Origin: an uncultured Eubacterium sp. | GTDB taxonomy: Bacteria > Bacillota_A > Clostridia > Lachnospirales > Lachnospiraceae | Direction: 5' to 3' | Length of the DNA stretch: 8,529 bases | Assembly: GCA_947653505.1 (NCBI GenBank) | Contig: CANTHI010000139.1 | Span: forward strand, 1-8,529 | Part shown: positions 543 to 7,960 of the stretch, piece by piece | Layout: each line of letters starts with the position of its first letter | How positions within the stretch are numbered: position 1 is the stretch's first letter | Notes under the pieces: generated by a model | What the model saw: the letters and a program-made list of their open reading frames with translations, nothing else | Told to the model about the DNA's origin: nothing | The model's database searches: none | Translations under genes and position numbers: made by a program

Positions 543-1028
543 TTATTTCAGCCGCATCCTCATCTGATGCCAGCATACTCCCCCATGCACAGATTCCGAT
601 ACTCCTTCATCCTGAAACCCGAATTTCGCATAATAATGCACAAGCCGTTCCTTACAGGTCAGAACAAGCCCGTCCCTTCCCTGTGCCCCTGCTTCTTCTA
701 TCACATACCGGAGCAGCTGTCCCGCATATCCCCTGCACCGGTACTGCGGGCGGACATCCACTCCAAAGATCATCTGCCAGCTGCCATCGCTCTGATGCAT
801 ACCAGCATCGTCATACATTTCATCTTTCAGATCTTTCTGGCTGCTGACCATTCCGTTTACAAAGCCTATGATTTCCGCGCCGTCGCATAAAACCCAGAAA
901 TGATCCGGATAATACGTGAGACGGTTTTCAAATGACTGGCGCGTTGCCGCTTCGGCTGGCGGAAAGCATTCCTGTTCGATTTCCGTGATCTGGTCCAGAT
1001 CGTCTGCCTTTGCCGTACGGATCTTCAT
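543..1028 (-). CDS. GNAT-family N-acetyltransferase
   Basis: A 161-residue single-domain GNAT protein, which would transfer acetyl from acetyl-CoA to an amine. The opening MKIRTAKADDLDQITEIEQECFP is the usual first strand and helix. Motif A follows FGVDVRPQYRCRGYAGQLL, with the acetyl-CoA pyrophosphate loop R97-x-x-G100-x-A102. HYYAKFGF near residue 131 is the typical motif B end, with Y132 or Y133 as candidate general acid. The form resembles arylalkylamine-N-acetyltransferase-like members; the substrate cannot be read from sequence. A GTG start at 1037 would add three residues and overlap the preceding stop as GTGA, but GAGGTG at 1040-1035 is then the ribosome binding site, six bases before the ATG at 1028, so I chose the ATG. 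It is the last gene of the operon, 5 bases after the desulfidase gene. Acetylation of a cysteine-related amine or S-substituted cysteine is possible but only inferred from position. Confidence 0.88.
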   Translation of the reverse strand: MKIRTAKADDLDQITEIEQECFPPAEAATRQSFENRLTYYPDHFWVLCDGAEIIGFVNGMVSSQKDLKDEMYDDAGMHQSDGSWQMIFGVDVRPQYRCRGYAGQLLRYVIEEAGAQGRDGLVLTCKERLVHYYAKFGFQDEGVSESVHGGVCWHQMRMRLK

Positions 1029-1033
1029 GGTGT

Positions 1034-2374
1034 TCACCTCGTTTCTGTTTCTGCCTGCGCGGAACGTGCCGTTTCATGCATCATGATTTTTACAATTTCC
1101 TTATCTGTCTGGCGCATTCCTTCCCGTCCCAGACGTCCAATGTTGCGGATGGTGGCCTCCACGCCGGATGTTACGATCCCGTCCCCGCCATAAAACTGCT
1201 GCCCGTTCTGATACATATGAAATCCAAGAATCCCGGCTTCCACACTGGATGCTATTTTCGCTGCGCACGATGCCTTTGCGCCGTCGCAAATGATGCCGGA
1301 CACAATCGCCAGCGCATTCACAAGCGTGTGGGCAACTGCCTCGTAGTCCCCGCCCTGCAGATACGCAATGCCGCAGCCTGCCGCGCAGCCTGCACTGACA
1401 GCCCCGCAGTAGGCGGAGAGCCTGCCAATCCCGGTCTTTTCATGGATGGCAGTGAGGTTGGATACGAGCAGCGCACGGTAAAGCCTGTCTTTTGGCACGG
1501 ACAGCTCCTTTGCGTACTCTGTCACAGGTACGGAAACGGTCAGTCCCTGATTGCCGCTGCCGGAATTGATCACAACCGGCAGTTCACAGCCGCTCATTCT
1601 TGCGTCGGAACCGGCTGCAGCTTTTGCGATTGCGCGGTTTCGCACATCACTGCCGTAGTATTTCAGATACGTAGAACCAATGTTTGCCCCATAATCCCCA
1701 AGCAGCCCTTCTTCCGCAATCTGCGTGTTATACTGAATCTGTGTGTCCAGCACCTGTCTGACATCCGAAAGATCACATGTGTCCGCAAATTCAAGAATAT
1801 CCCTGATATTCAGCAGCGATTTGTCAGCCAGTCCCTGATCCGTATGCGCGCACTCCTCACAGGAAGTCACACTGGCTTCGCTCATGCGGTCAGAAAGCAC
1901 ACTGCCATTTTTTTCGATATATACAATGTTTGTATGATGCTGGCAGATCCGGACAGATGCCGTCTCCTGCCCGCTGGAAAGTGTCAGTATAATGTCAAAA
2001 ATGTATCCGCTGTCAGCGGAAGTGATTTCCACGGGCACTTCTTCCAGAAATTTTTTCATCTCAGCTTTCTGCTGCGGTGTGACGCTGGCGATGACCTCCA
2101 GTTTTTTTCCGGCGTCTCCTGCTACGATGCCTGCGGCGGCAGCTGACGCGATGCCCCGCATCCCACCTGTATTCGGAACGATCACGCTTTTTACATTTTT
2201 GATGATATTATCGCTGACGCTGACCGTCACATGGTCAGGCGCCGTACCCAGCACTTCCCTCGCCTTTGCTCCCGCATAAGCGATGGCAATCGGCTCTGTA
2301 CATCCCATCGCAGGCACCAGCTCTTCTTTCAGAATCTGTACATATGTCTGATAACGGATATCACTTTTTTCCAT
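1034..2374 (-). CDS. cyuA: L-cysteine desulfidase, Fe-S dependent (CyuA/YhaM, UPF0597 family)
   Basis: A 446-residue member of the serine-dehydratase-alpha-like UPF0597 family, whose characterised members (CyuA of E. coli, MJ1025 of Methanocaldococcus) split L-cysteine into sulfide, ammonia and pyruvate through 2-aminoacrylate. The hallmark PAMGCTEPIAIAYA puts Cys at residue 25, the position of the proposed catalytic base in the archaeal enzyme. HTNI (147-150) and SGSGNQG (271-277) are conserved family blocks. C323, C363 and C370 (in SAYCGA and IICDGAKASC) match the [4Fe-4S] ligands; C330 and C334 are extra. Length is normal for the family and there is no signal peptide, so it is cytoplasmic. 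The ATG at 2374 follows the stop of the upstream paralog by one base, with AAAGGGA inside that gene's end as ribosome binding site, so translation is probably coupled. The enzyme class is oxygen sensitive, fitting an anaerobe. The family is often mis-annotated as serine dehydratase; cysteine is the better-supported substrate. Confidence 0.9.
   Translation of the reverse strand: MEKSDIRYQTYVQILKEELVPAMGCTEPIAIAYAGAKAREVLGTAPDHVTVSVSDNIIKNVKSVIVPNTGGMRGIASAAAAGIVAGDAGKKLEVIASVTPQQKAEMKKFLEEVPVEITSADSGYIFDIILTLSSGQETASVRICQHHTNIVYIEKNGSVLSDRMSEASVTSCEECAHTDQGLADKSLLNIRDILEFADTCDLSDVRQVLDTQIQYNTQIAEEGLLGDYGANIGSTYLKYYGSDVRNRAIAKAAAGSDARMSGCELPVVINSGSGNQGLTVSVPVTEYAKELSVPKDRLYRALLVSNLTAIHEKTGIGRLSAYCGAVSAGCAAGCGIAYLQGGDYEAVAHTLVNALAIVSGIICDGAKASCAAKIASSVEAGILGFHMYQNGQQFYGGDGIVTSGVEATIRNIGRLGREGMRQTDKEIVKIMMHETARSAQAETETR
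1035..1040 (-). promoter_or_regulatory. Ribosome binding site deciding the GNAT start
   Basis: On the minus strand GAGGTG lies six bases before ATG at 1028. It overlaps the TGA stop (1036-1034) of the upstream desulfidase gene, which suggests translational coupling and argues against the alternative GTG start that would lie inside this site. Confidence 0.6.
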
Positions 2375-2375
2375 C

Positions 2376-3686
2376 TCATTCGTTCCCTTTCTGATTTAAA
2401 ATGTCCAGAATTGTCTGCTCCGTTCCTGTCATTCCCGGCGACGCGATCAGTCCCATATTCCGCATCGTTTCTTCCGGTGTGCCTGCGTTAATCCCATGTC
2501 TGCGGTCAACCGCAACCTGTTTCATTGCCATGTCCGCAGACACAAAAGCGGCATCCACCGCAACCACGCCTTTCATCGTACATCCCTGATTGCCGCCGTC
2601 GCAGATCATTCCGGTAATGCTGCATGCCATATTGCTGATTGCCATGCCCATAGCCTTCGCATCCCCGCCCCGCAGAAAGACAAGTCCGCATGCCATGCCG
2701 GTTCCGGCCGCGATCGCACACCCGCAGAACGCGGACAGCCTGCCGGAATACTCTTTCAGGTACATACAGACCAGATAGCTTAAGGCCGTGGCACGCAGCA
2801 GAGATTCTTCTGAAAGATGCCGCACCTTACAGACCGCATATAACGGCATGGTAGCGATAATGCCATGTGCTCCGGAGCCTGTAATGCTCATCGCCGGTCT
2901 GGCCAGACCAGTTACACGGGCCTCAATCGCGGCATTGCATAAAAGAGAAGCCGTCCTGCGTTCATCTTCTGAGATAACTACCCCGCCGTTTGCCTCCAGA
3001 AGGTAATGCGCAAACACGGTCTTTTCACTGCGCAGCCCTTCCTGCATCAGCTCCCAGTTCAGACGGTACGCTTCGCTGATAAACGCAAGCTCTTCTGCCG
3101 GAACATGCACCACATATTCATAAATCTGCTGTAACGAATACTGATGAATCAGCGCATGTTCTCCCATTGCACAGTCTTCCCCGGCTGTCTGCACACCTTC
3201 TTTTTCCGGCTCTTTTACTTTTTCATAGACAATATTTCCATCAGCCGTGATGCGGACAATATTGGTATGTGAGTCACGGATCGTTACAGCAGCCGTGCTG
3301 CCGCCTGCCGTACAGACAACCGCATCGATCATGATTCTGGCCGTAACCTCTTTCATCACCACATGGATTCTGTTTTCCGCCACCATCCGCGCGGCCTTCT
3401 GCTTTTCTTCTTCCGAAATCCCTTCCAGACATTCCAGCCCTTTTTCCGGATCCGCCGCCACGGCGCCAAGCGCCGCAGCATATGCATTTCCGACTTCGCC
3501 AGTACCCGGTATTCCGCACGTAAACGCATTTTTATAAATACCGCTGTTCAGATACAGGGTGACATTTTCTACATCCCCTGTGACATAATTTCTGGCTGTT
3601 GAAACCGCGAATGCGATAGCTGCCGGTTCCGTCACCCCGAGCGCCGGCTTCATATCATCCCGTATGAGTTTTGTAAGTTCATGCAT
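2376..3686 (-). CDS. UPF0597 cysteine-desulfidase-like protein lacking the catalytic Cys
   Basis: A 436-residue paralog of the next gene downstream, aligned along its full length: PALGVTEPAAIAFA (14-27), SHTNIV (139-144), TGSGAHG (269-275), SAFCGC (318-323) and MICDGGNQGC (360-369). The putative Fe-S ligands C321, C362 and C369 are kept, but the residue matching catalytic C25 of CyuA is Val (V18, codon GTG at 3635-3633), and the SGSGNQG block has become TGSGAHG. The gene is otherwise intact, with an AAGGAGGG ribosome binding site nine bases before the ATG, so it is not a decayed copy. It may be a non-catalytic partner that forms a mixed complex with CyuA, or an enzyme for another substrate using a different base. 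Its stop is separated from the CyuA start by a single base, which favours balanced production of the two proteins. Databases would probably label it serine dehydratase alpha subunit family; the function is not known to me. Confidence 0.85.
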   Translation of the reverse strand: MHELTKLIRDDMKPALGVTEPAAIAFAVSTARNYVTGDVENVTLYLNSGIYKNAFTCGIPGTGEVGNAYAAALGAVAADPEKGLECLEGISEEEKQKAARMVAENRIHVVMKEVTARIMIDAVVCTAGGSTAAVTIRDSHTNIVRITADGNIVYEKVKEPEKEGVQTAGEDCAMGEHALIHQYSLQQIYEYVVHVPAEELAFISEAYRLNWELMQEGLRSEKTVFAHYLLEANGGVVISEDERRTASLLCNAAIEARVTGLARPAMSITGSGAHGIIATMPLYAVCKVRHLSEESLLRATALSYLVCMYLKEYSGRLSAFCGCAIAAGTGMACGLVFLRGGDAKAMGMAISNMACSITGMICDGGNQGCTMKGVVAVDAAFVSADMAMKQVAVDRRHGINAGTPEETMRNMGLIASPGMTGTEQTILDILNQKGNE

Positions 3687-3701: not shown

Positions 3702-4349
3702 TTACTGGAAAGCGGCCAGTATCTGTGCAAGCTCCAGCGTATGCGTCCCGTCCTCTCTGACAAAGCATGGAATGCCCAAAGATGCCGTCCCGCGGATGTT
3801 TTCGTATGCCTGACTGCTTTCCCGCAGGGCAAGATATGCTTTCAGATCCGCGTGGCAGGACAGAATATCCTGAAAATCCGCTTCAATCCCAGCCTGCGCA
3901 AGCTGTCCGAGCGCATAAAGCGTATCCGGACACAAATGGCTCCCGATCACGGTTACTTTCGCACCTGTTCCGGTCGCTTTCTGCTTTACCGCGGCTGCTT
4001 CGATCTCGCATAATACACCTTTGGGCAGCGTCTTTACTGCCACGCAGCTGCGGGCCGGATGGGATGGAAAGTACTGCGCGTAGACTTCATTAAACGCGGC
4101 AAAGTCATCCATGCTGGCCAGAAAGCAGGTCGTTTTAAATACATCTGACATACTGCCGCCTGCCGCTTCGATTACTGCCTTTACGTTTTCACAGCTTTGT
4201 CTGGCCTGCTCCTGAATCCCTTCCGGTACGCTTCCATCTGACGGGCAGACCGGAAGCTGGCCTGAGGTACAGATCATACCGTTTACTTCGTATCCCTGTG
4301 AATATGGTCCGATCGCTCCTGGAGCATTCTGTGTTTTGATTGTGTTCAT
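3702..4349 (-). CDS. RidA (YjgF/UK114) fused to a glutaredoxin-like domain
   Basis: A 215-residue two-domain protein. Residues 1-124 are a complete RidA domain: GPYSQGYEVNG (14-24), SGQLP (29-33), and PARSCVAVKTLPKGVLCEIEA with R100 (the substrate-carboxylate Arg, R105 of E. coli RidA), C102 and E117 (E120 in E. coli). RidA hydrolyses 2-aminoacrylate and other reactive imines to keto acids. After a short linker (KATGTGA), residues 130-215 form a thioredoxin fold: strand KVTVIGSH, active site C140-P-D-T143, and GIP with cis-Pro P194 followed by C195. This matches small glutaredoxin-related proteins of anaerobes with a CPDT, single-Cys site. RidA proteins are normally about 125 to 130 residues, so this is a genuine C-terminal extension in one frame. 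The ATG at 4349 has AGGAGG eight bases upstream. The context, between a symporter and desulfidases that make aminoacrylate, explains the RidA half; the redox half suggests disulfide or persulfide handling. Confidence 0.88.
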   Translation of the reverse strand: MNTIKTQNAPGAIGPYSQGYEVNGMICTSGQLPVCPSDGSVPEGIQEQARQSCENVKAVIEAAGGSMSDVFKTTCFLASMDDFAAFNEVYAQYFPSHPARSCVAVKTLPKGVLCEIEAAAVKQKATGTGAKVTVIGSHLCPDTLYALGQLAQAGIEADFQDILSCHADLKAYLALRESSQAYENIRGTASLGIPCFVREDGTHTLELAQILAAFQ

Positions 4350-4369: not shown

Positions 4370-5614
4370 TTAAGCATTCGTCAATTGTTTTTTACTTTTT
4401 CTTTCCAGCCATTCTTTTCCTTCTACGATACGTGTGATAATCATCGACGCGATCGTATCTCCGGACGCGTTCAGGCAGGTGGCCATCGGATCTACCAGAA
4501 ATCCTATCGTCGCGACAAGTGGAAATGCCTCACCCGGAAATCCAAACAGGCTGACAATCAGCATCTCGCCGACCAGCCCGCCGCCCGGCGCGCCGGATAA
4601 TACAAACGCGCTCAGTACCGATACCACAATCGCCATTGCGTAAGTCCCCACCCCGCGAAACGGCATCTGAAATACGCCGAATAAAAACGCGATTTTCGTA
4701 ATCGATGACAGTACCGAACCATCCATATGCATGGTGGCGCCCATAGGCAGTACAATATTGCTGATATCATCCGGCACCCCGATTTCATCACACGCTTCCT
4801 TGTTTACCGGCAGGGAAGCTACGGAGCTTTGTGTCGCAAAAGCGGTGACAGCCGGCTTTAAAATATGAGCCGCCATTGTCCGGACTCCTTTTTTGCCCGC
4901 CGCAAAATAAGCATACAGTGGAAAAAATACAAGTCCGTATACGATACACATCGGATAATAAATGAGCATACACCGCCCGTAATCCCCGATCAGCTGCGGG
5001 CCAAATTCTCCTACCAGATTGGCAAAATAAGCGCCCAGTCCAACCGGTGCCAGCTTCATAATCATATCCACGATCTTCATAATAATATGATTCAGGTTCT
5101 CCATTAATCTGCCAAACGCGCTCTCCTGCCCACCGCACTTTGCGACTGCCAGTCCGGTAAAAATAGCCGCTATAATAATTGCCAGCATATTTTCACGGTT
5201 CAGCAGACCGGAAAAATTGTCTACCGTCAGTGTATTTACGATCATATCGCTGACCTCAGACATCTCTCCCATCTCAGCGCCTGACAGCTCCATTGCCGTA
5301 TTGGCAGCCGGAGGCCAGATAACAGCCAGTACCAGCACGGCCGCAAACAGGCCGGTAATGATAAATACCGATACCATAGAGCCCAGAATCTTACCAAGCC
5401 GCTTCATGTTCAGCATACTCCCTACCGCATTAACAATAGAGACAAACACCATCGGCACCACAACGGTAAACAATAAATTGATAAAAATATCCCCAACCGG
5501 AGCCAGAACAGATGCTTTTTCTCCCAAAACCGCACCGATCGCGGCGCCCAGCAGTATACCGCCTAAAAGGATCAGCGGAAACCGGTAATTTTCCCAGATT
5601 TTCTTTTTATCCAT
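4370..5614 (-). CDS. Dicarboxylate/amino acid:cation symporter (DAACS, GltP-like), probably for neutral amino acid
   Basis: A 414-residue inner-membrane protein with the glutamate-transporter-homolog layout of eight helices and two re-entrant hairpins. HP1 is TQSSVASLPV (261-270), the TM7 cation motif is GATMHMDGS (292-300, NMDGT in the family type), HP2 is SGAPGGGLVG (340-349), and TM8 is DPMATCLNASGD (375-386). Aligned with GltPh, D375, T379, N382 and D386 match D394, T398, N401 and D405, but the Arg that binds the side-chain carboxylate of Asp/Glu (R397) is Ala (A378). In this family that Arg is lost in carriers of neutral amino acids, so uptake of serine, cysteine or cystine is more likely than glutamate. 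The ATG at 5614 has a G-rich GGGGGAG site six bases upstream. It is the second operon gene, 43 bases after the lyase gene and 20 before RidA-Grx, in the right place to feed the enzymes with substrate. Coupling ion (Na+ or H+) cannot be told. Confidence 0.9.
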   Translation of the reverse strand: MDKKKIWENYRFPLILLGGILLGAAIGAVLGEKASVLAPVGDIFINLLFTVVVPMVFVSIVNAVGSMLNMKRLGKILGSMVSVFIITGLFAAVLVLAVIWPPAANTAMELSGAEMGEMSEVSDMIVNTLTVDNFSGLLNRENMLAIIIAAIFTGLAVAKCGGQESAFGRLMENLNHIIMKIVDMIMKLAPVGLGAYFANLVGEFGPQLIGDYGRCMLIYYPMCIVYGLVFFPLYAYFAAGKKGVRTMAAHILKPAVTAFATQSSVASLPVNKEACDEIGVPDDISNIVLPMGATMHMDGSVLSSITKIAFLFGVFQMPFRGVGTYAMAIVVSVLSAFVLSGAPGGGLVGEMLIVSLFGFPGEAFPLVATIGFLVDPMATCLNASGDTIASMIITRIVEGKEWLERKSKKQLTNA

Positions 5615-5657: not shown

Positions 5658-6827
5658 TCAGAGTGCGTCCGCCGCCTCCCGCAGCTGCTTCATTGCCTGT
5701 TCCAGAACGGCTCTCGGACACGCTGCGTTTAACCGCATAAACCCGTTCAGCGACCGTCCAAACGTATAGCCTTCATTCAACCCCAGCTTTGCCTTTTCAA
5801 TCATAAACGTCCGCAGCGCTTCATTACTGAGTCCAAGCTCCCTGCAGTCCAGCCACATCAGGTAAGTCGCATCCGGCAGATTGGGCCTGATTTTTGGAAT
5901 ATAATGATTGCAATACTCCCTTACAAACTCAAAATTACCGGATAAGTATTCCAGCAGCTGATCCAGCCATTCCCTGCCTTCCCGATAAGCCGCTTCGATC
6001 GCAACCGCGCTGAACGCACTATTGCGGTGGATATCCATGCTGCTCCAGTATTTGTCAAAATCCCTCTTCATATGCGCATCCGGAAAGATCGTGGTAGAAG
6101 CCTGAAGCCCGGCCAGATTAAATGTCTTTGTAACCGATACGCATGTCACCACATATTCGCCGGCTTCTTTTGACAGCGTGGCTGTACGTGTATGCTTCTT
6201 CCCGTGAAAGACAAGATCCGAATGGATTTCATCCGAAATAACCATCACATGATGCTTCCTGCAGATATTCACCATCCGTTCCAGCTCTTCCGGCTCCCAG
6301 ACAATGCCCAGCGGATTGTGCGGACTGCACAGCAAAAATACCTTGCATTTCTTTGCACATTCCTCGAAATCCTCAAAATCTATCCTCCATCTGCCGTCTG
6401 TTTCCACCAGTCTGTTTTCCACAACCACACGCCCGATTGCCTCCGGAATATCGTAAAATTCGGAATATACAGGCGTCTGGATCAGCACCCGGTCGCCGGG
6501 CATCGTATAGATCTTCATAAGCGCCGCCATCGTCTGGACTACGCCAATCGCCCAGCTCATCAGGGATGTATCCGGACTCCAGCCATAATACCGCTCCTCC
6601 CACTCCCTGACTGCCTCAAAATAACTGTCCGTGCGCGAAGTATAGCCCCAGATCCCTTCCTCTGCCTTTTTCACGCATGCGTCGATGATTGGCTGTGCCG
6701 TACGGAAATCCATATCCGCCACCCACAGCGGGATCACATCATCCGTGCCAAATTTCATCATCCGCTCGTCATATTTTGAAGAATGGGTATTTCCGCGGTC
6801 GATGACCTCATCAAAATTATATTTCAT
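5658..6827 (-). CDS. patB: PatB/MalY-type PLP-dependent C-S lyase (cystathionine/cysteine beta-lyase)
   Basis: A 389-residue fold-type-I PLP enzyme of the aminotransferase class I/II family. The opening NFDEVIDRGNTHSSKYD (residues 4-20) and LWVADMDF (34-41) are characteristic of the PatB/MalY branch, which cleaves C-S bonds of cystathionine, cystine, cysteine or S-substituted cysteines to give a thiol or sulfide, ammonia and pyruvate through aminoacrylate. GYTSR (61-65), SPHNPLG (168-174), DEIHSDL (199-205), SVTKTFNLAGLQ with Schiff-base K234, and MRLN with carboxylate-binding R365 are all present, so it should be active. It is cytoplasmic. The ATG at 6827 has AAAGGAG about ten bases upstream, and it is the first gene of the operon, directly behind the promoter at 6938-6910. 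True aminotransferase activity is less likely because of the branch motifs. Which thioether or disulfide it prefers cannot be decided; with a cystine-like uptake system the disulfide lyase reaction is attractive. Confidence 0.85.
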   Translation of the reverse strand: MKYNFDEVIDRGNTHSSKYDERMMKFGTDDVIPLWVADMDFRTAQPIIDACVKKAEEGIWGYTSRTDSYFEAVREWEERYYGWSPDTSLMSWAIGVVQTMAALMKIYTMPGDRVLIQTPVYSEFYDIPEAIGRVVVENRLVETDGRWRIDFEDFEECAKKCKVFLLCSPHNPLGIVWEPEELERMVNICRKHHVMVISDEIHSDLVFHGKKHTRTATLSKEAGEYVVTCVSVTKTFNLAGLQASTTIFPDAHMKRDFDKYWSSMDIHRNSAFSAVAIEAAYREGREWLDQLLEYLSGNFEFVREYCNHYIPKIRPNLPDATYLMWLDCRELGLSNEALRTFMIEKAKLGLNEGYTFGRSLNGFMRLNAACPRAVLEQAMKQLREAADAL

Positions 6828-7261: not shown

Positions 7262-7960
7262 ATGGAGATAGCAAAAGAGGTCGGTCATTCCATTAAATTT
7301 TACCGGAAGCAGAACAACATGACAACCGAAGAGCTCGCCGCGAAGATCTGCAAAAGCAAATCCTGCCTGTCCAAATACGAAAACGGCAGAATCGCCGCTG
7401 ACATTGTCACCTTATACGAGATCGCCGACGCGCTGCACATCCGCGTGGAACAGCTGCTACATCGCAACAGCGGCTGTAATGCACAGACAGGAACGTCAGC
7501 GTCCGTGCCTGCTTTTTTTCAAAATCTGAATCAGTTTTATTTATATTATTACGACGGGAGAAAACAGCAGATCTGCTGCTGCGTGACCGATATCGGCGAC
7601 GAGACCAGAGAAGGCGTCTTTCAGGCCGATATGTATATGAACATACGGGATTACCGGCTGTGCGAAAATACATATGCAGGCTATATTTACCATTATGATT
7701 CCATCAGCTGTATCATTTTGCAAAATGCAGACATGCCTATGGAACAGTATCAGGTCAGTATCCCGCATCCATATCTGAACGCTTCTGTAAAATGGGGGCT
7801 GGCTTATGGGATCTCTTCCCGTCCCCTGATGCCTACTTCTACAAAAATACTGGTCAGCAAGACGATACAGGAGGAAACTCCTGAGCTGAAAAAAGAACTG
7901 CTGCTCTCCAAAGAAGATATCCGGTTAATGAAGCTGTATAATATGCTGACGGTGCAGTGA
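7262..7960 (+). CDS. XRE-family helix-turn-helix regulator with unknown C-terminal domain
   Basis: A 232-residue protein with an N-terminal HTH_3/Cro-CI-type DNA-binding domain at about residues 7-66: GHSIKFYRKQNNMTTEELAAKICKSK, recognition segment SKSCLSKYENGR (32-43) and VTLYEIADALHIRVEQLL. The remaining 165 residues are rich in aromatic residues (YLYYYDGR, YAGYIYHYD) and match no effector domain that I recognise. Eight cysteines are spread over the protein, including a C105-C106-C107 run, which is unusual for this family and could sense thiols or bind metal; this is speculation. GGAG eight bases before the ATG at 7262 supports the start. It is divergent from the sulfur operon and probably controls it and itself through the TTTCCTGACAG motifs. 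Whether it activates or represses is unknown; sites upstream of -35 hint at activation. Confidence 0.85.
   Translation: MEIAKEVGHSIKFYRKQNNMTTEELAAKICKSKSCLSKYENGRIAADIVTLYEIADALHIRVEQLLHRNSGCNAQTGTSASVPAFFQNLNQFYLYYYDGRKQQICCCVTDIGDETREGVFQADMYMNIRDYRLCENTYAGYIYHYDSISCIILQNADMPMEQYQVSIPHPYLNASVKWGLAYGISSRPLMPTSTKILVSKTIQEETPELKKELLLSKEDIRLMKLYNMLTVQ

Follow-up and report, generated by a model that had tools for sequence, protein, structure and literature searches.

A rare fusion of RidA to a CPDT glutaredoxin-like domain in a cysteine-catabolic operon of an uncultured Eubacterium sp.

Why would a cysteine-degrading operon encode RidA and a thiol-redox domain as one protein? The window analyzed here, an 8,529-nucleotide stretch of DNA from an uncultured Eubacterium sp. 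(contig CANTHI010000139.1), carries such a gene, which raises the questions of whether the protein is real, whether it represents a new kind of system, and what its two halves could do together. Cysteine-fermenting, H2S-releasing gut Clostridia must handle both 2-aminoacrylate and reactive disulfides/persulfides. The chemistry of RidA is established, as is the formation of 2-aminoacrylate by PLP enzymes that cleave cysteine, and RidA genes cluster with those of cystathionine beta-lyase and of cysteine-cleaving enzymes that form 2-aminoacrylate, as reported in the relevant sections of PMC4433059. The RidA fusions described in those sections are tandem Rid domains (3x-RidA, PMC4433059), whereas the partner in the window is a redox domain. 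In the open-licence literature we found no description of a RidA-glutaredoxin fusion or of a glutaredoxin in a cysteine desulfidase operon, in keeping with a preliminary description of this locus that knew of no protein of this form.

Results

The gene joins a full RidA domain to a glutaredoxin-like domain

The preliminary description had read one uninterrupted frame encoding RidA followed by a thioredoxin-fold domain, and had pointed to residues 124 to 131 as the place where a frameshift or stop codon would undo that reading. We found the frame open throughout its 215 codons, and the corresponding protein cluster spans 21 contigs, which together rule out a frameshift or assembly artefact (Table 1). 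The RidA part scored 152.4 bits against the subfamily model TIGR00004 (cut-off 106.25) and 132.6 against PF01042 (cut-off 27.3). Alignment to TdcF, the closest solved structure, showed that the catalytic R100 (4050-4052) and its partner E115 (4005-4007) are both kept, as the preliminary description had claimed; the window thus shares with RidA/TdcF a full domain and the catalytic Arg and Glu. A cysteine, C102, lies two residues from R100 within a PARSC motif. In the weakly resolved RidA tree, the window RidA sits on a long branch (0.6 versus a median of 0.078), which despite the kept catalytic residues indicates fast change, perhaps following the fusion.

Table 1 Features of the window and the evidence for each
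Feature	Position	Strand	Basis
RidA-CPDT-glutaredoxin fusion, 215 aa	3702..4349	-	single open frame
RidA (Ribonuc_L-PSP) domain, residues 6-121	3987..4334	-	PF01042, TIGR00004
Linker, residues 122-130	3960..3986	-	pLDDT 62 over residues 121-130
CPDT glutaredoxin-like domain, residues 131-215	3705..3959	-	predicted structure and stand-alone relatives
PatB-family C-S (cysteine beta) lyase, first operon gene	5658..6827	-	TIGR04350 464 bits, cut-off 340
SDF-family (sodium:dicarboxylate/amino-acid) symporter	4370..5614	-	PF00375 E 4e-94; 20 bp upstream of fusion
CyuA-like L-cysteine desulfidase paralogue 2 (GVTEP)	2376..3686	-	PF03313; alignment to MmCyuA 9fsl
CyuA-like L-cysteine desulfidase paralogue 1 (GCTEP, cluster cysteines kept)	1034..2374	-	PF03313; alignment to MmCyuA 9he0
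GNAT acetyltransferase, last gene of set	543..1037	-	overlaps desulfidase gene by 4 bp
XRE-type regulator, divergent from operon	7262..7960	+	family match

The C-terminal part (about residues 129-215) matched no Pfam model at E<=1, PF00462 included, and a PDB sequence search with this domain gave no usable match, so we turned to structure prediction. The predicted structure is glutaredoxin/NrdH-like (pLDDT 92), which upholds the fold proposed earlier where Pfam is silent. Matches to HrpA and a dehydratase (E 0.25-0.73) were off-topic and were set aside. More distant relatives (L136, L139, and L142) do pass the PF00462 cut-off, unlike the window domain. In place of a CxxC redox pair we found CPDT in the window and in 28 of the 32 fetched relatives. 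Judged by conservation, the active site appears to be a monothiol CPDT centered on C140 (codon TGT, 3930-3932), with C195 (3765-3767), after a predicted cis-Pro, as the second conserved thiol. The earlier assignment of C140-P-D-T143 and a cis-Pro therefore stands as to the motif, with the cis-Pro as predicted, and is amended to a single-thiol motif plus C195. On inspection by eye, the domain has no GG-type glutathione motif. It thus departs from NrdH redoxin and glutaredoxin (PF00462) in motif, in profile match, and in this glutathione element.

The fusion lies in a cysteine-catabolic operon

The fusion gene is the third of a tightly packed minus-strand set in the order PatB, SDF symporter, fusion, two CyuA-like genes, and GNAT, with gaps of 43, 20, 15, and 1 bp followed by a 4-bp overlap. 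The cysteine-catabolic setting proposed earlier was borne out, since the lyase exceeds its TIGR04350 cut-off and both desulfidase-like genes match PF03313. The best NCBIfam model for the symporter is SstT, below cut-off. The symporter carries Ala, near its TTVNVTGD stretch, where the aspartate transporter 9bgz has Arg; this replacement fits a neutral amino-acid substrate.

In alignments to MmCyuA, whose residue roles we took from the relevant part of PMC12647591, paralogue 1 keeps all three cluster cysteines together with Cys23 and Glu25. Paralogue 2 keeps the cluster cysteines and the Glu and has Val at the position of Cys23. Because this Val replaces the catalytically important Cys of GCTEP, paralogue 2 may be a non-catalytic partner or may act on another substrate. 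The GVTEP variant also occurs in three related loci (L127, L128, and L129). The CyuPA/CdsAB cysteine-use operons of E. coli and Yersinia ruckeri share with the window a CyuA-type desulfidase beside an amino-acid importer; the window adds the PatB lyase, RidA, and the CPDT redoxin, and its transporter is of the SDF family.

The divergent XRE-type regulator is a possible controller of the operon by its position, and no XRE match was found in the 32 related loci described below. Since relatives carry sigma-54 regulators, we checked the window for -24/-12 promoters. Allowing at most 2 mismatches to the consensus gave 9 matches, where 9.78 would be expected, and hence no evidence for such a promoter in the window.

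The redox half belongs to a family of small stand-alone proteins

A protein search with the CPDT domain alone returned 355 homologues. Among the 120 listed, most are 82-87 aa long, and most of those named are called glutaredoxin, with one hypothetical protein; the names of stand-alone relatives among the matches listed include Lachnospiraceae, Enterocloster, Hungatella, Mediterraneibacter, other Clostridia, and one Treponema, which makes a gut clostridium the likely host of the window genes. By sequence, we assign the redox half to an ~84-aa stand-alone "CPDT" redoxin family, mostly from Clostridia and without a Pfam model. G-S-H-L-C-P-D-T-L is invariant in 39 aligned rows, and the GxP motif likewise never varies at its Gly or its Pro. 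The window domain shares the CPDT and GIPCF motifs with the stand-alone "glutaredoxins" of Lachnospiraceae and other Clostridia at up to 77% identity over the domain; the stand-alone form differs in being a separate ~84-aa gene with its own start codon, which in many loci keeps the same operon company as the window domain.

To sample this company we searched genomes with a profile of the CPDT-domain alignment (A1). Matches at E<=1e-22, with repeats counted once, gave a core set of 32 stand-alone loci of up to 16 kb in 31 genomes, one of which (G1385) contributed two (9 loci in L127-L135, 12 in L159-L170, and 11 in L182-L192). The match in one core locus, L191, holds a stop codon. The core redoxin was uncommon: the first family had it in 6 of 397 genomes, that of G778 in 9 of 71, and that of G001 in 7 of 350, while an order-level draw gave 4 of 392, one of these a repeat. 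Weaker matches were left out of the core set: of the 69 genomes (of 397) in the first family that matched at E<=1e-3, 6 qualified as core, and of the 8 (of 391) that matched at E<=1e-15 in another search, 1 did. The loci of the 11 next-ranking weaker genomes, which hold more distant Grx relatives, served as a control.

PatB is a more frequent neighbor than RidA

We called a neighbor at E<=1e-8 and at least 35% identity to reference proteins. PatB was found near the redoxin in 22 of the 32 core loci, a transporter likewise in 22 (SDF in 14, an NhaC-type antiporter in 8), a sigma-54 regulator in 18, and RidA in 12; because the loci share ancestry, each cannot be counted as a separate trial. CyuA-like genes were near in 9 of 32, in 5 of the 9 on the strand opposite to the redoxin. 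None of these genes, nor the reductase genes considered below, occurred in the 11 control loci at the same thresholds, and short stretches of 24 weaker loci yielded a single PatB match (L116) at 26% identity, below the threshold. PatB is missing from 10 of the 32 core loci, and 9 have none of PatB, SDF, NhaC, RidA, or the sigma-54 regulator at threshold; in one of the nine (L163) a sigma-54 regulator falls just under it (34%). CPDT together with a Cys after the predicted cis-Pro was kept in 22/22 PatB-linked copies versus 4/10 of the others, while a Cys at 165 was kept in 9/22 of the PatB-linked copies. A second, divergent PatB-SDF pair, 35-41% identical to that of the window, flanks the operon in four loci (L130, L159, L160, and L161).

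CoA-disulfide-reductase-type genes lie near the redoxin in 3 of the 32 loci, and two of them carry a C-terminal rhodanese domain: one divergent from the redoxin (L133:3983-5689) and one between RidA and Grx (L134:6186-7859), both below NCBIfam cut-offs. The third, in L135, adjoins the redoxin, is above its NCBIfam cut-off, and has no rhodanese domain. A CoA persulfide reductase of the same flavoprotein class in E. faecalis clears CoA persulfide, according to the part of PMC9405070 that treats it. This company makes a disulfide or persulfide chemistry for the redoxin more plausible.

Seen from the redoxin, then, the gene tracks PatB more closely than RidA. In a control centered on RidA (the best 80 of 122 loci by similarity), PatB occurred at the same thresholds in 2 loci, SDF and CyuA-like genes in 0, and a CPDT domain in none, so the RidA-redoxin link comes to light in searches that begin with the redoxin and not in those that begin with RidA.

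RidA and redoxin are often neighboring genes and have probably been joined more than once

In 10 of the 32 core loci (L127, L131, L164, L166, L167, L169, L170, L186, L187, and L188), a RidA gene of the same orientation ends 12-130 bp upstream of where the redoxin begins, an adjacency recovered in three separate family searches. The two genes share a frame in 3 of the 10 pairs, and the fused form occurs in 0/32 core loci (open frames of 86-140 aa). L127 has the gene order of the window, PatB, SDF, RidA, Grx, CdsB2, CdsB1, and GNAT, at 59-77% identity, with RidA and Grx separate; its GNAT, also last, is 59% identical to that of the window. Given these separate neighbors, and L127 in particular, the window gene is a rare fusion of genes that are partners in related operons. 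It is real and not an artefact, but it does not amount to a new kind of system. In L127 a gene for RpoN, sigma-54 itself, is inserted after the redoxin on the other strand (L127:8256-9692). L127 also has a sigma-54 regulator; neither RpoN nor the regulator is among the window ORFs that we scanned.

Protein searches for fusions gave six clusters with both domains. In the list of the 120 top-ranking proteins out of 7999 scored, five clusters have RidA first (P0001-P0005) and one the reverse order (P0006); the other proteins listed are at most 157 aa long, and both 157-aa proteins, when inspected, were without a redox domain. A search with P0006 found the redox domain in P0006 and P0002 among 120 listed, the rest being at most 145 aa and judged by length. 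Scoring in both searches was limited to the 7999 candidates with the most words in common with the query, which may have left divergent fusions unseen. A 256-aa protein combining a topoisomerase start with RidA (P0259) looks like a chimera and was set aside. With six clusters seen and 0/32 among the fetched loci, RidA-redoxin fusions look rare. The genomic link between RidA and the redox domain that the preliminary description drew is thus upheld by the adjacent stand-alone copies and the six clusters; the fused protein that it described is real, and is now seen as a rare derivative of neighboring genes.

The route to fusion can be read from the relatives. In L187, an unfused pair of the P0003 type, RidA, TAA, 12 bp, and ATG all lie in one frame, which shows how loss of a single stop codon fuses such a pair. 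At their junctions P0003-P0005 retain the internal Met, and the stop codon is the one point at which they depart from this pair. Each of the three was found on one contig, the E115 position is changed in P0004 and P0005, and sequencing error or strain noise may account for them. In the window the change is a step more advanced, since the redoxin has also lost its start codon: the codon after the linker is GCG where stand-alone relatives have ATG. By this comparison, the fusion probably arose when RidA lost its stop codon in a pair of closely spaced genes, with loss of the start codon of the redox gene presumably following.

In a Grx-domain tree with few columns and many open forks, P0003-P0005 fall outside a supported clade (99/96) that holds P0001 and P0002, and P0002 belongs to a supported clade (99/95) from which P0001 is absent. 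In the RidA tree, with its weak resolution, P0002 and P0003-P0005 group with two stand-alone RidAs in a 94/92 clade, which weakens the case for separate origins of these fusions. The split positions of the fused Grx domains, together with the reversed P0006, point to multiple fusion events, probably at least two in forward order and one in reverse.

These data bear on whether the fusion matters at all. Chance loss of a stop codon in a tight gene pair could leave two domains that work just as they did when separate. The close spacing and shared frames of the adjacent pairs, the appearance of P0003-P0005 as sense changes of an L187-type stop codon with the internal Met intact, and the long RidA branch, which would fit relaxed constraint, all suit such a neutral event. 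Against it, the window gene has lost its internal start codon yet keeps R100, E115, C140, and C195, its cluster is spread over 21 contigs, and both domain orders exist, with the fused Grx domains on different branches. We regard a neutral fusion as possible but unlikely.

Discussion

From its fold, its pair of conserved thiols, the lack of a glutathione motif as judged by eye, and the reductase-type company in 3/32 loci, we infer that the redoxin takes part in disulfide or persulfide removal. We favor, with about an even chance of being right, a reading in which RidA removes the 2-aminoacrylate made by PatB and CyuA while the CPDT domain handles the disulfide/persulfide side of the same pathway. 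The preliminary proposal that both activities handle linked products of cysteine or cystine cleavage thus gains partial support. The SDF symporter would import cysteine, cystine, or another cysteine disulfide. Going by its family, PatB would cleave the C-S bond to give 2-aminoacrylate and a thiol, the latter being replaced by cysteine persulfide when cystine is cleaved; PLP enzymes (CBS/CSE) are reported to convert cystine to thiocysteine (PMC9484011, in the part concerned with these enzymes). The CyuA-like desulfidases would release H2S and, via 2-aminoacrylate, pyruvate and ammonia, in line with the products given for CyuA in the relevant part of PMC12647591. RidA, with its catalytic residues kept, would hydrolyze 2-aminoacrylate/2-iminopropionate to pyruvate and ammonia before PLP enzymes are damaged, and the CPDT domain may reduce the incoming disulfide or outgoing persulfide through monothiol attack by C140, and C195 may serve to resolve the product. 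In the fused protein both clean-up steps would share a single particle, probably formed by a RidA trimer bearing three redox domains. Several points speak against this reading: CPDT has one Cys where a classical redox pair has two, the Cys at 165 is poorly kept, many loci have no adjacent RidA gene or no PatB, and fusions are rare. Since CyuA-like genes are near the redoxin in so few loci, and often on the opposite strand, the operon substrate may be a cysteine S-conjugate and not cystine.

A more specific version is doubtful in our estimation. Here the three monothiol redoxins on a RidA trimer would take the persulfide (or mixed disulfide) of the PatB cystine lyase directly while RidA takes the 2-aminoacrylate of the same turnover, and CPDT/GIPC proteins would form an undescribed class of glutathione-independent persulfide/cystine reductases dedicated to cysteine catabolism in gut Clostridia.

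Could the redox domain instead serve RidA itself, keeping C102 or further thiols of RidA in the reduced state or clear of sulfane sulfur? The proximity of C102 to the catalytic R100 invites the idea, and H2S-rich operon chemistry could conceivably persulfidate exposed thiols, but 22 of the 32 redox genes have no directly adjacent RidA, the redox gene follows PatB more closely, and the RSC motif is also found in TdcF, which to our knowledge has no redoxin partner. We consider such a service role very unlikely.

The only NCBIfam match of the CPDT domain, over its first half, is to UXX-star family 1 (NF041114). A review (PMC13188914) lists this family as "Distant Grx-like protein 1" with a UxxT motif and states that its Sec may bind metal or unknown substrates. 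That the domain is a metal- or selenium-handling relative of these selenoproteins, and not a disulfide/persulfide reductase, is highly improbable: the Thr of UxxT is shared with CPDT, but the scores (16.4 bits, 21.4 for the best relative tested) are far under the cut-off of 72, the window has Cys and not Sec, its active-site codon being TGT with no in-frame TGA there, and the company in 22/32 loci is that of cysteine catabolism.

Returning to the pathway that RidA and the redoxin may share, the fusion of RidA to a redoxin that is often its separate operon neighbor hints that both jobs belong together. The fusion, and more so the recurring set of PatB, transporter, RidA, and CPDT, ties a redoxin family without a Pfam model to the cysteine pathway and gives it a precise, testable list of substrates. 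The CPDT redoxin family of cysteine-catabolic operons is a more interesting object than the fusion itself. Redoxins of this wider kinship have also been joined to one another: distant relatives form tandem proteins in which a single frame of 180-206 aa holds two copies (L139, L140, and L141, and also L106, L109, L110, and L114), and in L139 the first motif is CKDC.
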